Below are positions 3,264 through 10,462 of a stretch of 23,568 nt of DNA, in pieces. The DNA is from a virus. A program made the position numbers and the translations under genes. How positions within the stretch are numbered: position 1 is the stretch's first letter; every line of letters begins with the position of its first letter. The notes beneath the pieces are model-generated. The model had not been told where the DNA came from. It ran no database searches and saw only the letters and a program-made list of their open reading frames with translations. The DNA lies in IMG/VR virus record IMGVR_UViG_3300024262_000249, positions 1 to 23,568 of that record; one strand, given 5' to 3'.

Positions 3264-3364
3264 ATGGTTTTTTTATTCCTTAAATAAAAATAGTTGATAA
3301 AAATTATTTAACTTTGTATTTAAACAAATTAATTGCTAATTAAGTTTAGCCCTAATTTAATTTA
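3264..3364 (+). promoter_or_regulatory. Intergenic leader of the head genes with -7 box TAACTTTG
   Basis: A 101-bp AT-rich gap between the terminase and portal genes. TAACTTTG at 3309-3316 matches the Bacteroidota -7 consensus TAnnTTTG. The nearest TTG (3294-3296) is only 12 bp upstream, short of the 17-23 bp usual for a -33 element, so any promoter relies on the -7 box. Roughly 40 nt of A/T-rich leader without a purine-rich ribosome site precede the portal ATG at 3365. I see no terminator hairpin here. Confidence 0.5.
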
Positions 3365-4603: not shown

Positions 4604-5303
4604 AAATATAGAATTATCAGTAAAGGATATTGATACAGCTGGAAGGCGTGTTAAACTTATGCTATCTAAATTCAACAATATTGATTCAGATGGTGATGTA
4701 ATTGTAAAGGGTGCATTTACTAAATCAATCCAAGAACGTGGACCAGAAAGTATGAGTAACAGAAAAATAAAATTTTTACGTTACCATGACTTTGAACATC
4801 AAATTGGAATATTCAAACAAATAGAAGAATCGGCAGATGGTTTAATTGCTTATGCTGATTTAGGAAGAAGCACAAAAGGTAATGATGCTTTTTTAGATTA
4901 TCAAGATGGAATAATTACAGAACATTCTATTGGATTTCAAACTATTACAGATAAGACCGAAATAAGAGAGGATGGGATTCAATTATTAAAAGAGGTTATT
5001 CTTTGGGAGGGTTCAGCTGTTACATTTGGATCTAATGCAGATACACCAATGTTAACAGTTTCAAAGGGTAATAGTGTTGAATACTTAGAGCAACTTAACC
5101 AAAAGATGTTTGGACTTACCAACGCTTTAAAGAATGGTAAGGGAACAGATGAAAGACTAGAAGAAATTGAAATGAATTTAAGAGTATGCCAAACTAAATA
5201 TAATGATGTAATAAATTCACTTATGGTAAAAGAGCCAACGAAAGCTACTCCAGAGGTTAAGCCGAATGATTACAATGATTTTTATTTAAACTTAACAAAA
5301 TAA
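4581..5303 (+). CDS. HK97-type prohead maturation protease (S78 family)
   Basis: A 240-aa serine protease that trims the capsid protein's N-terminal domain during head maturation. The fold signature is present: a DSDGDVIVKGAF turn (36-46), the catalytic His69 in FLRYHDFEHQIG (65-76), and the catalytic Ser116 in EHSIGF (114-119). A later acidic position near LLKEVILWEGSAVTFG may complete the triad. Domain length is normal for the family, and the last roughly 60 residues form a Lys/Glu-rich tail. The ATG at 4581 lies 23 nt inside the portal gene and gives an N-terminus (MYNLFKTKNIEL) that looks complete. The major capsid protein, its substrate, is next. Confidence 0.93.
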   Translation: MYNLFKTKNIELSVKDIDTAGRRVKLMLSKFNNIDSDGDVIVKGAFTKSIQERGPESMSNRKIKFLRYHDFEHQIGIFKQIEESADGLIAYADLGRSTKGNDAFLDYQDGIITEHSIGFQTITDKTEIREDGIQLLKEVILWEGSAVTFGSNADTPMLTVSKGNSVEYLEQLNQKMFGLTNALKNGKGTDERLEEIEMNLRVCQTKYNDVINSLMVKEPTKATPEVKPNDYNDFYLNLTK

Positions 5304-5328
5304 TTAATAATAATTTAAAAAAATAATA

Positions 5329-6609
5329 ATGAAAAAATTTAATTTATTCTTAGAAAGCAAAGGTATTTCTACAGAACAATTCAAAGAAAAAAGTGCTGAA
5401 GAAATTGCTGGACTTTACAACGAGTACAACGAAAAGAATGCTGAAGTATTAGCGGAATTAGTTGCAAAAGGTCAAGAAGATAATGTTGAAGCAATCAAAT
5501 CTTTGAAAGAAGAAATATCTGCAAATCACATTTTACAATCTAAGTCTTTAAACGAAACTTTAAAACAATACGGTTTACAAATTAAAAAACTTACTGAACA
5601 AGAAAAAACTGATGGTGCTGCTGTTGTTAACTCTGTACAAAAAGGATTAGAAGCTAATAAAGAAACTTTATTAGAAATGAAATCTAACAAAGGTGCTAGA
5701 ATGAGCTTCAAAGCTGCTGGGACTATGTTAATTTCTACAAATGTATCAGGGGGTAATGTACCAGTTGAACAACGTTTATCTGGAGTTGACAATATAGCTT
5801 CAAGACAAATCAGATTATTAGATGTAGTTACAAGAGGTACAGCTGAATCAAATGTTATTTCTTGGGTATCTCAAGCTAACAAAGATGGTGCTGCTGGTGG
5901 AACTGCAGAGGGTGTTTTAAAGAATCAAATCGACTTTGATGTAGTTGTTGTTTCTGAATCTGTAAAGAAAAGAACTGCATTCATTAAAGTATCTGAAGAA
6001 ATGATCAATGATATTTCTTTTATGACTGCCGAAATTAACAACGAGTTAATGAGAGAATTATTGAAAGATGTTGAAAACCAAGTTTATCAAGGTGATAACG
6101 CTGGATCTAACTTAAACGGTATTAAAACAGTTGCTACTGCTTTTGCAGCTGGTGCTTTTGCTCTTGCAGTTGATAACGCTAACGAAGCTGATGTATTGAC
6201 AGTTGCAATGAATCAAATTCAAGTAGCCGAACAAGAAGATGCAACTCACGCTTTTGTTCATCCTAATACTATTACTACTCTAAAATTGATTAAAACTTCT
6301 ACAACTGATAGACGTTATATTGACCGTTTAGCAATGGTTGCTGGTCAACTTAGTTTAGACGGTGTTGCTTTAGTTCCTACAACTTTAGTAACGGCTGGAG
6401 AGTACTTAATTGGAAACTTCCCATCTGCTACTGTTTATGACAAAGGAGAAATTTCTATAGAAGTTGGTCGAGATTCAGATGATTTCACTAAGAACTTAGT
6501 AACTGTATTAGCTGAGTGGAGAGGTTTATGTTTAGTTAAAACTAACAGAAGACCAGCATTTGTTACAGGAGTATTTGCAACTGATAAAGCTGCTTTAGAA
6601 ACTGCTTAA
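5329..6609 (+). CDS. Major capsid protein, HK97 fold
   Basis: A 426-aa capsid subunit. Residues 1 to about 125 are charged and helical, a coiled-coil delta domain that serves as built-in scaffold and is probably removed by the adjacent protease. From about 126 (RMSFKAAGTML) the HK97 core begins. Conserved pieces include the axial and E-loop region with ESNVISWVSQANKDGAAGGTAEG, the P-domain helix VSEEMINDISFMTAEINNELMRELLKDVENQVYQGD, and the C-terminal AEWRGLCLVKTNRRPAFVTG. The gene has a 25-nt A/T-only leader and a strong terminator after it, as expected for the most abundant virion protein. Codon use is more uniform (TTA, GCT, GAA) than in neighbours, consistent with high expression. Confidence 0.95.
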   Translation: MKKFNLFLESKGISTEQFKEKSAEEIAGLYNEYNEKNAEVLAELVAKGQEDNVEAIKSLKEEISANHILQSKSLNETLKQYGLQIKKLTEQEKTDGAAVVNSVQKGLEANKETLLEMKSNKGARMSFKAAGTMLISTNVSGGNVPVEQRLSGVDNIASRQIRLLDVVTRGTAESNVISWVSQANKDGAAGGTAEGVLKNQIDFDVVVVSESVKKRTAFIKVSEEMINDISFMTAEINNELMRELLKDVENQVYQGDNAGSNLNGIKTVATAFAAGAFALAVDNANEADVLTVAMNQIQVAEQEDATHAFVHPNTITTLKLIKTSTTDRRYIDRLAMVAGQLSLDGVALVPTTLVTAGEYLIGNFPSATVYDKGEISIEVGRDSDDFTKNLVTVLAEWRGLCLVKTNRRPAFVTGVFATDKAALETA

Positions 6610-7705: not shown

Positions 7706-8065
7706 ATGGCTAAAAGTTACGATTTAAGGAGGGAAGTTGAAGTTGCAAAGATGCAAACTTTAATTGATGCTGTTGATGGTATCGAAAGAGGCACTTTGGC
7801 TTCTTTGGTTAATACTGATAACATACCTGCAAGTCTTACAGAGGTGCTTTTAATGGCTTCAAATGTTCTAAGGAAAGAAGTTACTATACAAAACAATTCA
7901 AACGGTATAATGTATGTTATTAGAGGCGGTGGGGTTACAACAACTAATTACAATTGGAAATTAAAAAGAGGAGATCATTTAACAATAGATGATTTTCGAG
8001 GCGACATAAAAGCTATCTTTGTAAACTCAACAGGTTTTGCAATGGTATCTGAAAGTTATTACTAA
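7706..8065 (+). CDS. Virion surface protein, tandem paralogue 1
   Basis: A 119-aa protein with a helical N-terminal third (1-40) and a beta-rich C-terminal domain (about 44-116). This domain aligns with residues 68-140 of the next gene's product: LLMASNVLRKEVTIQNNSNGIMYV here matches LLAANADRKQVVIRNDTNQDLYI there, and WKLKRGDHLTIDDFRGDIKAIF matches IKLKKNDVYLEDKYTGTISGIW. The pair therefore looks like a duplication followed by divergence. The fold (NxSNxxMYVxxGxG... with a later FxGxIxAIF) is common in phage head and fibre proteins. It is likely a decoration or surface-exposed virion component, but no function is shown. Confidence 0.65.
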   Translation: MAKSYDLRREVEVAKMQTLIDAVDGIERGTLASLVNTDNIPASLTEVLLMASNVLRKEVTIQNNSNGIMYVIRGGGVTTTNYNWKLKRGDHLTIDDFRGDIKAIFVNSTGFAMVSESYY

Positions 8066-8082
8066 TAAAATAAATAAATAAA

Positions 8083-8517
8083 ATGAGTCAAGTGCAACAA
8101 TCAAATGATGACCTACTATTAGAGTTAGAGTCAATCGACACAAGAGTAGAAACTTTAAACACCAACGGTGCTAAAGAGTCCAAGCAGGACACTATGATAA
8201 CAGAATTGCAGTCTATTGCTGCAAATACTGATGGTTTAGGTTTAGCAGATACAGGTGCTGCAAGTACGGTTGCAGTTTCAATTACTTCCGTTACTTTATT
8301 AGCGGCTAATGCAGATAGAAAACAAGTTGTAATTAGAAATGACACTAATCAGGATTTGTATATTGCACATGGAGCAACAGCAACCGTATCAAGTGCTATT
8401 AAGTTAAAAAAGAATGATGTTTATTTAGAAGATAAATATACAGGTACTATAAGTGGAATATGGGATTCTGTTGCTGGTGGTGGTAACGCTCAAATAATTG
8501 AAGATACTAAGGCATAA
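8083..8517 (+). CDS. Virion surface protein, tandem paralogue 2
   Basis: A 144-aa protein. Residues 1-55 form an acidic helical, probably trimer- or dimer-forming stalk (LLLELESIDTRVETLN). Residues 62-140 form a beta-rich domain homologous to the preceding gene's C-terminal domain. The conserved core is ANADRKQVVIRNDTNQDLYI, then KLKKNDVYLEDKYTGTISGIWDS. A 17-nt A-rich gap separates it from paralogue 1, and its TAATG junction overlaps the next start by one base. The N-terminal stalks of the two copies do not resemble each other, so one may be attached differently. Virion surface or fibre-associated role is inferred. Confidence 0.65.
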   Translation: MSQVQQSNDDLLLELESIDTRVETLNTNGAKESKQDTMITELQSIAANTDGLGLADTGAASTVAVSITSVTLLAANADRKQVVIRNDTNQDLYIAHGATATVSSAIKLKKNDVYLEDKYTGTISGIWDSVAGGGNAQIIEDTKA

Positions 8518-8921
8518 TGAGTAATATTGTCATAAGTAGTAGTGAAGATGCTGTTTCAGGTTATTTGAAAGTTCAAGTAACTGAAACAACTTCATCTAAT
8601 AATTTTAGCAGCAATACGCCAACTAATGTTCCAGGTTTAACTTATACAATTACTGTTGATGGTGATTATGTTTTATATTCTATAATTAACGGTGAGTGCG
8701 ACCAAAACGAAGAAATAGAACTTTATTTTGCTAAAAATGGAACTACTGATTTAGATTCTGTATGTATAGATAAATGGCAAAAGAAAAATTTGCAAAGTGT
8801 TCAATCAACTTATGCTTTAGACGGTTTGGTTGCTGGTGATGTTATTACTGTTCAGTTAAACACAAATAATGATAATGTTGATTTAGAAAATAGAAGGTTA
8901 TTATTGCAAACATGGGGATAG
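8517..8921 (+). CDS. Beta-rich virion protein (jelly-roll-like), 134 aa
   Basis: A 134-aa Ser/Thr/Asn-rich protein. Strand pattern: GYLKVQVTETTSSNNFSS, GLTYTITVDGDYVLYSIIN, EEIELYFAKNGT, and SVQSTYALDGLVAGDVITVQLN followed by NRRLLLQTWG. A central 'G-x-Y-x-hYSIING' strand followed by 'LYFAKNG' and 'GDVITVQL' is the general layout of C1q/TNF-like jelly rolls that appear in phage surface proteins; this is a resemblance only. It starts in a TAATG junction and ends in a 10-nt overlap with the Cys-rich gene, so the three are in one translational block. Confidence 0.6.
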   Translation: MSNIVISSSEDAVSGYLKVQVTETTSSNNFSSNTPTNVPGLTYTITVDGDYVLYSIINGECDQNEEIELYFAKNGTTDLDSVCIDKWQKKNLQSVQSTYALDGLVAGDVITVQLNTNNDNVDLENRRLLLQTWG

Positions 8922-9250
8922 ATTGTTTAAAATGTATTAATAGTGCTTGTTGTAAACTTGTTATTGAAGTAGATAAAGAAGAATATGATAGTAGTGTTAA
9001 ATCTGTTAAAAAGCATTTAGTAAAAAGAACTGATGAATTTATAAAAAGATTCCCAAAGCTTGAAAGTAAAAGAAATCATTTCGATGAGATGTATAAAGAT
9101 AATTTTGCTACATTAGAAAAAAGTGATGATGGTTTATGTGTTTTATTAGATAGAAAAACAATGTTGTGTTCTGTTTATGAAGATAGACCAAAATGTTGCA
9201 AAGATTACACAACAAATAGATGTTCAAAAATTAGAGAATGTATAAATTAG
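8912..9250 (+). CDS. YkgJ-like Cys-cluster (Zn/Fe-binding) protein
   Basis: A 112-aa protein with ten Cys. CLKCINSACC (5-14) is the C-x2-C-x4-CC signature of the YkgJ/'CxxCxxxxCC' family. LCVLLDRKTMLCSVYEDRPKCCKDY (75-99) matches its second half, where a typical member has 'C..L.....C.IYE.RP..CR.F'. More Cys follow at 104 and 110. The family is thought to chelate zinc or iron or carry an iron-sulfur centre; its activity is unknown. Length is normal. In the phage it sits between a virion protein and a conserved phage gene, with 10-nt and 13-nt overlaps. It may be an assembly or stress function, or a cellular gene acquired into the structural operon. Confidence 0.75.
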   Translation: MGIDCLKCINSACCKLVIEVDKEEYDSSVKSVKKHLVKRTDEFIKRFPKLESKRNHFDEMYKDNFATLEKSDDGLCVLLDRKTMLCSVYEDRPKCCKDYTTNRCSKIRECIN

Positions 9251-9729
9251 AAATACAACCAAAGAATAACAATGCTGAGGGGCATTTTTTCAATAAATGG
9301 TTAAACAACAATCACGTTCATACATCGTGCGTTTATAATGATTTTGGTGTTGATGTTTATTTTAGTAGTGAGCCATCTCAAGCTATAAAGGGTGAAATTA
9401 TTAATAAATACAGCTCTTTAACTGCTGCTGATTTACTTTATGATTTAATTATAAAAGACGGTTACGAGCAATATAAAGAAGATGGATTGGACTATTTCAA
9501 TGATATTAGGGTTGAATTAGTCTTGGAGTATAAGGCTGGTTTAAAGACGCCTGCTGAGATTTACGAAATAGAATCTAAACTAGATAAGACTATTACTAAA
9601 ATATTACGTGGTGACTGGATGAGCGCTTCCTTTGAAATGCAGAGCGTTGTTATAGATGGAGCATTGACGCAAGAGTTTTACGATGAAATATTAAACCATA
9701 TTAACAACTACGTAACAGAAAATTATTAA
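9238..9729 (+). CDS. Hypothetical phage protein, 163 aa
   Basis: A 163-aa protein without a recognised motif. N-terminal strands (YKLEIQP, SCVYNDFGVDVYFSS) precede helical segments (AADLLYDLIIKDGYEQYKEDGL; KTPAEIYEIESKLDKTITKILRGDWMSASFEMQSV). The C-terminus is a helix ending NNYVTENY. The 'WMSA...GDW' helical segment resembles C-terminal regions of small phage proteins of unknown role. It starts 13 nt inside the Cys-rich gene and ends two bases before a membrane-anchored gene. A virion or assembly role is only implied by location. Confidence 0.6.
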   Translation: MYKLEIQPKNNNAEGHFFNKWLNNNHVHTSCVYNDFGVDVYFSSEPSQAIKGEIINKYSSLTAADLLYDLIIKDGYEQYKEDGLDYFNDIRVELVLEYKAGLKTPAEIYEIESKLDKTITKILRGDWMSASFEMQSVVIDGALTQEFYDEILNHINNYVTENY

Positions 9730-9731
9730 TA

Positions 9732-10037
9732 ATGGATTTAGAAGGTAATATAGGAAATTTAATGACTGCTTTAAGCGGTGTTATTGGTGTAACTGCTGCT
9801 TTTTTCACGTTAAAAGGACACGTTAATAATAACGAGGACAAAATTCAAGACTTAAAAGACAAGATGACTAAAGATAATGAAGTTTTACATTTAAGGATTG
9901 AGAAAACGCAAGAAACAGCCTCAAAATATATTGAAAAAACAGATTCAGAGTTCAAGGAAATAAACGCCAATATGAATAATGTATTAATTGAAACTTCAGC
10001 AATTAAAGGAATGATTGAAATATTATTAAACAAATGA
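9732..10037 (+). CDS. Membrane-anchored coiled-coil protein (lysis or tail accessory candidate)
   Basis: A 101-aa protein. Residues 5-27 (GNIGNLMTALSGVIGVTAAFFTL) are hydrophobic and predicted to span the membrane once. From about 32 (NNNEDKIQDLKDKMTKDN...) to the end it is a charged heptad-rich helix with little Pro or Gly, i.e. a coiled coil. This layout is that of small phage proteins in the XhlA/holin-accessory or spanin class, in which a short anchor carries a coiled-coil stem. It lacks any lipobox or Cys. The gene is in a structural operon upstream of DUF1353 rather than beside the endolysin candidate at 23448, so the lysis role is tentative. Confidence 0.55.
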   Translation: MDLEGNIGNLMTALSGVIGVTAAFFTLKGHVNNNEDKIQDLKDKMTKDNEVLHLRIEKTQETASKYIEKTDSEFKEINANMNNVLIETSAIKGMIEILLNK

Positions 10038-10462
10038 TGATAACTAAAACCAATGTTCGTGAGTATTTGAAGAATGGATTGGTTAAAACTTCAATGGTTT
10101 ACCCGATCACTAAAGATTCTCATTATGTTGTCTTAGAAGAATTAATAATAAAATTATCAAATGAAGAAATTATTAAAATACCTAAAGGATTTAAGTTCAA
10201 CGGTAGTTCATCTCCGAGATTCCTATGGTGGTTATTTCCTCCTTATGGAGATTTTTTCTTTGCTGCTATTATTCACGACTATTTATACCATATTAAGTAT
10301 AAATCTACTGAAATTAATATTAAATTAGCTAAAAAAATAGCTGATAAAGAAATGTTAATTTGGTCTAACATAATAAATAAGCGTAACTTTGCTAAAATAG
10401 TTGATAATTATTCACGTTATTACGCAGTTCTTTTATTTGGAATGAAGCAATATAAAGATTAA
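10034..10462 (+). CDS. DUF1353 family phage protein
   Basis: A 142-aa member of DUF1353. The signature is IPKGFKFNGSSSPRFLWWLFPPYGDFFFAAIIHDYLY (residues 49-85), in which 'IPxGFxxxGxSxPRxLWW' and 'AAIIHDYLY' are the family hallmarks; His81 and Asp82 are the conserved pair. Members are frequent among tail- and lysis-adjacent phage genes; their biochemical role is not known. Length is normal. The start is a tandem ATGATG in a 4-nt overlap with the upstream stop (10035-10037), so either ATG could be used. It ends in a TAATGA junction with the next gene. Confidence 0.88.
   Translation: MMITKTNVREYLKNGLVKTSMVYPITKDSHYVVLEELIIKLSNEEIIKIPKGFKFNGSSSPRFLWWLFPPYGDFFFAAIIHDYLYHIKYKSTEINIKLAKKIADKEMLIWSNIINKRNFAKIVDNYSRYYAVLLFGMKQYKD

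Follow-up and report, generated by a model that had tools for sequence, protein, structure and literature searches.

A YkgJ-type cysteine protein gene linked to a predicted C1q/TNF-like domain in phage genomes

Results

The window, i.e., the entire 23,568-base virus record analysed here, encodes a small cysteine-rich protein of the YkgJ/CxxCxxCC family (CX) directly behind a gene for a predicted C1q/TNF-like jelly-roll domain (DOM). In all clade contigs with CX (34/34; 31 plus 3 added) the upstream open reading frame (ORF) ends in this domain of ~120 aa. A functional connection of CX with DOM, as its target or its partner, is therefore very probable. Covalent modification of DOM by CX is the reading that we tentatively prefer, based on the sequence relationships described below.

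Table 1. Features of the DOM-CX locus, with positions in the window.
Feature	Position	Strand	Basis
DOM, 134 aa, almost entirely one C1q/TNF-like jelly-roll domain; proposed CX partner or substrate	8517..8921	+	Model, structure match, linkage
Codon of DOM residue K89, candidate target residue	8781..8783	+	Invariant lysine in alignments
DOM/CX overlap, 10 nt	8912..8921	+	Sequence reading
CX, YkgJ/CxxCxxCC (PF03692), 112 aa	8912..9250	+	ORF, Pfam, alignment, dN/dS
163-aa protein with no assigned function; possible third module member in part of the loci	9238..9729	+	13-nt overlap with CX; homologous at this position in 29/300 locus pairs

Genomic Setting of CX and DOM

CX was initially described as part of a virion structural operon, and the gene order agrees with this: terminase, portal, protease and major capsid protein genes lie upstream of CX and a tape measure gene lies downstream. 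The terminase is closest to those of the Nonlabens phages P12024L and P12024S (41.7% identity) and the capsid protein to those of Flavobacterium phages (38.3% identity), which points to a host that is probably a member of the Bacteroidota.

The overlaps of CX with both flanking genes are as first reported (Table 1). The CX reading frame has an ATG start, formed by the last base of a DOM Thr codon and the first two bases of a DOM Trp codon. A DOM-CX overlap of 10 nt recurs in 12 of the 23 sources with an upstream ORF, and the rest have other small overlaps or gaps. The gene behind CX had no match in a collection of named phages (50,697 records).

Two adjoining small genes before DOM, 7706–8065 and 8083–8517, are paralogues of each other (28–35% identity, relatives against window) and may encode further decoration or fibre proteins. 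The latter matches phrog_33692, a family of unknown function, at E 1.7e-5 and the former only at 0.01. The gene at 10034–10462 encodes a DUF1353 protein that also matches phrog_1158, which is named tail assembly chaperone.

CX Is a Member of the CxxCxxCC Family

The cysteines of CX are arranged as C5-x2-C8-x4-C13-C14 near the N-terminus (C-x2-C-x4-CC), followed by C76, C86, C95-C96, C104 and C110, with the stretch CSVYEDRPKCC near the C-terminus. Eight of them are conserved in the family (C5, C8, C13, C14, C76, C86, C96 and C104), while C95 and C110 are extra here. The assignment to the YkgJ family, made earlier from the two cysteine clusters (the second ending in YEDRPKCC), is supported by a match to PF03692 (CxxCxxCC) of 33.9 bits (E 5.1e-8), above the curated Pfam cut-off of 23. 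In the CX alignment A3, each of the 18 members hits this family at E ≤0.1 (best 1.3e-10). The PF03692 signature, C-x2-C-xn-CC with a later C-x-(I/V)-Y-x2-RP-x2-C, is present in alignments A1 and A3 when compared with a short cellular-type set, with H for Y in one contig (L008).

Searches against PHROG gave six weak matches for CX, every one a family of unknown function. The predicted structure of CX has low confidence near the cysteines (block pLDDT 50–72 at both ends) and gave no Foldseek match to known structures at E 10 and no VIA-align row among 8 chains, and the best sequence match among solved structures was only E 0.76.

The possibility that CX is a passing insertion or a decaying gene was considered and rejected. 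Three close relatives (L001, L002 and L004) have CX at the same place, the linkage to DOM holds in 34/34 contigs, and dN/dS values of 0.12 and 0.17 against two close relatives show that purifying selection acts on CX.

The aa identity of CX between the window and two relatives is 97–98%, and its dS against two close relatives is 0.09 and 0.11, compared with at least 0.27 in the seven tested neighbours where computable. At 8881–9240 the window is 93–100% identical to L001, L011 and L013 (the last of which ends inside CX), and just past CX the identity drops to 68–85% in L001 and L011. The low dS of CX and this identity peak make a recent recombination centred on CX itself likely. In one distant copy (L031, 6001–6376) CX is broken into two frames by what resembles, by eye, a short tandem duplication, which is either a sequencing error or real decay.

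DOM Has a Predicted C1q/TNF-Like Fold

DOM matches nothing in Pfam or PHROG at E 1. Its AlphaFold monomer model has a mean pLDDT of 91.9 and nine strands, and the best PDB match is the N-terminal lectin of BC2L-C (6tid; VIA-align Z 14.0, rmsd 2.4, 117 residues). Other PDB matches are BxpB, the Photorhabdus lectin PLTL, chlamydial Pgp3, the phi812 spike knob and a fibre domain of cyanophage A-1(L), and 629 viral predicted structures match at E ≤0.001. The predicted fold is thus a C1q/TNF-like jelly roll, in line with the jelly-roll-like character previously ascribed to the gene. Such domains are usually the trimeric ends of adhesins.

Among the named phages (50,697 records) DOM had one match at chance level (E 10). 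A longer DOM protein (from L014) also had one match (E 2e-3), at residues 139–181, ahead of the DOM part.

Residue K89 is a lysine in 20/20, 22/22 and 12/12 rows of three overlapping alignment sets. It lies in a loop between model strands 76–87 and 93–104, and the strand order suggests that it sits at the pole of DOM opposite the C-terminus. D108 is invariant in the same three sets (20, 22, and 12 rows), G75 in the 22-row and 12-row sets and Q96 in the 20-row set, and both of the latter are nearly so elsewhere. K89 may therefore serve folding or binding instead of being a target. No His or Cys of DOM is ≥90% conserved in the 20-row and 22-row sets, which makes delivery of a soft metal by CX to DOM unlikely.

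CX Is Linked to DOM Across Changing Gene Orders

Loci were collected from viral contigs with CX (8, 23 and 26) and with DOM (21, 26 and 11), in sets that overlap. A scan of 38 sources with CX and DOM profile models, which were built from clade members so that the search itself partly determines what counts as the clade, gave CX-model matches in 36. Clade-type CX (≥50 bits) was found in 31 contigs including the window, all with DOM directly upstream, although in one (L027) only the last ~30 residues of DOM are on the contig. The remaining five matches (L205–L209; 39–41 bits, cellular-like) are in viral contigs without DOM.

Conversely, DOM was found in 36 contigs, of which 34 have CX directly behind it. 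One of the other two (L159, contig L051) ends, as read by eye, in a jump from within DOM to mid-CX sequence (3300–3361), and this junction is a probable assembly chimera. The other (L152, identical to L047) has DOM with K89 kept, but neither CX nor any PF03692 match in its 39.8-kb record.

The cellular-type YkgJ genes without DOM in L206–L209 may be host genes at prophage edges; in the two read by eye, the gene lies behind acetyltransferase-like genes (L206) or before a repressor-like gene (L208). In the 143-kb contig L205 (3300037245_000806, 5001–6070) a short YkgJ-type gene (86 aa) follows a gene for a 1165-aa protein and directly precedes one whose product has a collagen-like GPKGDPG stretch and repeats; this may be an independent case of a YkgJ gene next to a fibre gene.

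Positions were compared in 26 of 33 DOM contigs, omitting near-duplicates (L013, L017, L168, L023 and L025) and partial loci (L156 and L159). By BLAST, DOM is homologous in 253/300 locus pairs (84%) and CX in 300/325 (92%), the remaining 25 all involving L152. The other neighbours are homologous in 1–10% of locus pairs: 10/276 for the gene before DOM, 7/253 for the one before that, 29/300 for the gene after CX and 5/253 for the next one. In the longer DOM proteins, the N-terminal parts mostly show no relationship to one another (BLAST matches in 7/78 pairs among 13 sequences). Distances between CX proteins follow those between DOM proteins (Mantel r 0.69, 0/9999 permutations as high, 22 loci), although part of this correlation is shared ancestry. 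Single linkage by any shared neighbour gives four clusters with 23/26 loci in one, and requiring the shared neighbour to have the same position gives 11 clusters, the largest with 13 loci. The phages are thus partly related, and the independent contexts number about 11, not 34. Since the other neighbours change while DOM and CX stay, the two act as a single mobile unit, much as a fibre and its chaperone do.

CX could in principle have a general metal or redox function, in which case its gene would only happen to lie beside DOM and the two proteins would not touch. PF03692 is widespread in cells (9/14 control genomes, bacteria and archaea), the five weaker CX-model matches lie in contigs without DOM, and in Vibrio phage R21Y a protein with a PF03692-type annotation (R21Y_123; PMC10671443) has hypothetical genes around it. 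R21Y_123 gave no CX-model match, and no DOM was found in 22.8 kb (forward frames). The same domain upstream of CX in 34/34 clade contigs amid changing neighbours would, however, not be expected of such a bystander, and we consider this explanation highly unlikely.

The preliminary description had proposed a role for CX in assembly or in modification of a virion component. The linkage to one domain type across many gene orders supports this in part; what CX is tied to, however, is the upstream C1q/TNF-like domain and not the structural operon in general.

A Possible Chaperone-Like Role for CX

Small genes behind fibre genes often encode chaperones. CX could accordingly be a non-catalytic helper of the Tfa kind that assists the C1q/TNF-like tip in folding or trimerising, or that caps it transiently, and in this case its zinc or iron site would be structural. 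The position of the gene directly behind the tip, the mobility of the two genes as a unit and their co-divergence are all traits of tail-fibre/chaperone modules. Such a module is reported as common to distantly related Alteromonas phages (PMC10579305), and in Pam3 the chaperone is described as binding a TNF-like fibre domain (PMC9608196). Yet the Pfam families matched by the 18 CX members at E 0.1 include no chaperone family, the kinship of the CX family is with FliB and YkgJ, and eight conserved cysteines would exceed the needs of a binding surface. We regard this role as a possible but somewhat doubtful one, and prefer covalent modification to it.

Kinship of CX to FliB and Short YkgJ Proteins

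FliB is described as a cytosolic SAM-dependent [4Fe-4S] lysine methyltransferase of flagellin surface lysines, with eight conserved cysteines stated; its cluster is bound by a CX4CX3CC motif, and both cluster and SAM are required for flagellin lysine methylation (PMC8598068). With hhalign, CX aligns to a set of 15 FliB proteins at 94.2% (E 1.1e-7) over 86 columns, reaching beyond the cysteines, and to a short YkgJ set (11 bacterial proteins and one viral, L183) at 98.9% (E 1.6e-17). The short YkgJ set against FliB gives 51% (E 1.5e-4), weaker than CX against FliB, with both sets being small and the ranking of these relations thus rough. PF03692 is matched by 8/15 FliB proteins at E ≤0.01.

With the FliB model NF038110 (373 positions, cut-off 85 bits), CX is hit in two of the 16 viral records scanned, at scores under the cut-off (E 1.1e-6 and 2.7e-4). 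No full-length match to it was found in these 16 records, the best being 21.2 bits over positions 9–86, and it matched nothing in them except CX. The CX protein of the window itself has no NCBIfam match at E 1. The alignment with CX covers only the first 100 or so residues of FliB, and the C-terminal ~260 residues of FliB are missing from CX. Because this part is absent and the FliB model finds nothing but CX in the viral records, SAM binding and catalysis may be absent from CX.

CX could also be a component of the virion, namely a small cap or linker, stabilised by metal, that remains bound to DOM and perhaps touches the receptor. The CX-DOM linkage fits this equally well, and the chaperones of Mu and Ur-lambda are reported in mature phages (PMC9608196). 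An exposed [4Fe-4S] site would, however, suffer from oxygen, which a zinc site would not. CX also varies little for such a role (97–98% aa identity), unlike many host-facing proteins, a weak point as recombination could also explain it. A structural place in the virion is improbable in our estimate.

Searches Outside the Clade

In genome contigs the best 80 of 320 CX relatives start at E 3e-10 and come mostly from Pseudomonadota with a few others (Opitutus, Bdellovibrio-type). The best segment of each begins at CX residue 55 or later, and there is no close prophage or host relative of CX among these best 80. In a tblastn search of the named phages (50,697 records) the sole match of CX, and also of the L183 protein, was the 'UNVERIFIED' Pseudomonas phage Y11 (L010; OQ572412, 16750–29022). 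By eye this region looks chromosomal, with oxidoreductase, glycosyltransferase, transporter and cellular-type YkgJ genes. Y11 was not counted as a phage carrier of CX, as the record may not be phage there. None of the papers listed in the literature searches, which had supplementary files and bioRxiv outside their scope, linked YkgJ/CxxCxxCC proteins with a phage fibre.

Discussion

We infer that DOM and CX make up a two-gene module of the receptor-binding type. DOM would be the distal, trimeric C1q/TNF-like domain of a fibre or adhesin, a domain that other phages carry behind varied N-terminal parts. CX would be a dedicated metal-dependent maturation factor, encoded right behind DOM and usually overlapping it, that contacts the tip directly and works on it in the cytoplasm, either ahead of assembly or in its course. 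A helper gene directly behind a tip and moving with it is the signature of a fibre chaperone, so CX probably serves DOM.

As for the chemistry, we favour a covalent change to the tip of the kind made by FliB, with K89 as the most likely site, and CX might use a cysteine-bound centre for it, perhaps [4Fe-4S]. This chemistry is preferred because FliB, a relative with a known reaction, modifies the surface protein of an extracellular assembly. The invariance of K89 and the kinship of CX to FliB speak for covalent modification, while the missing C-terminal part of FliB and the retention of K89 in L152, which has no CX, speak against it. More specifically, CX may be a minimal FliB-like iron-sulfur protein of phages that almost always accompanies a receptor-binding tip as its second gene and that methylates or otherwise modifies the invariant loop lysine of the C1q/TNF-like domain. 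Taken as a whole, this detailed version is rather unlikely.

To our knowledge, the short YkgJ/CxxCxxCC proteins have no established function, and we know of no reaction shown for any of them. If the minimal FliB-like version is true, the pair would represent a new type of post-translationally modified phage adhesin module and provide the first function for the short YkgJ proteins of bacteria and archaea. With a probable partner domain of 120 residues, the YkgJ question becomes a problem of two-protein co-expression. If CX is an enzyme, phages would modify their own receptor-binding tips; if it is a chaperone, it would be a new type of helper. Either way, the CX-DOM pair may help to locate receptor-binding tips in unannotated phages.

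Comparison With Known Systems

FliB and CX share an N-terminal cysteine domain (C-x4-C-x3-CC in FliB and C-x2-C-x4-CC in CX) with later cysteines and eight conserved cysteines in each, and the target is a subunit of an extracellular assembly, presumably so for CX. Unlike FliB, CX has only 112 aa without the C-terminal ~260, scores below the FliB cut-off and has a C1q/TNF-like phage domain as its proposed target. The short PF03692/YkgJ proteins are closer to CX, as seen from the score above the Pfam cut-off and the hhalign value of 98.9%, but CX has a longer C14–C76 stretch between the cysteine clusters, is phage-borne and is linked to DOM.

The fold of DOM resembles those of C1q/TNF-like lectins and fibre knobs such as the BC2L-C N-terminal domain, BclA, the phi812 spike knob and the cyanophage A-1(L) fibre (Z 12–14 over 114–118 residues), while DOM differs from these known proteins in having no Pfam or PHROG match at E 1. 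Finally, the tail fibre and chaperone modules of the Alteromonas phages V22/A5, Pam3 (gp24/gp25), Mu and T4 likewise encode a helper together with the fibre tip. The Alteromonas module also resembles DOM-CX in moving between distantly related phages (PMC10579305). The arrangement of a tip plus a helper is thus known, whereas the helper of DOM-CX comes from a cysteine/metal family with no chaperone family match, and such a helper family appears to be new as far as our literature search reaches.
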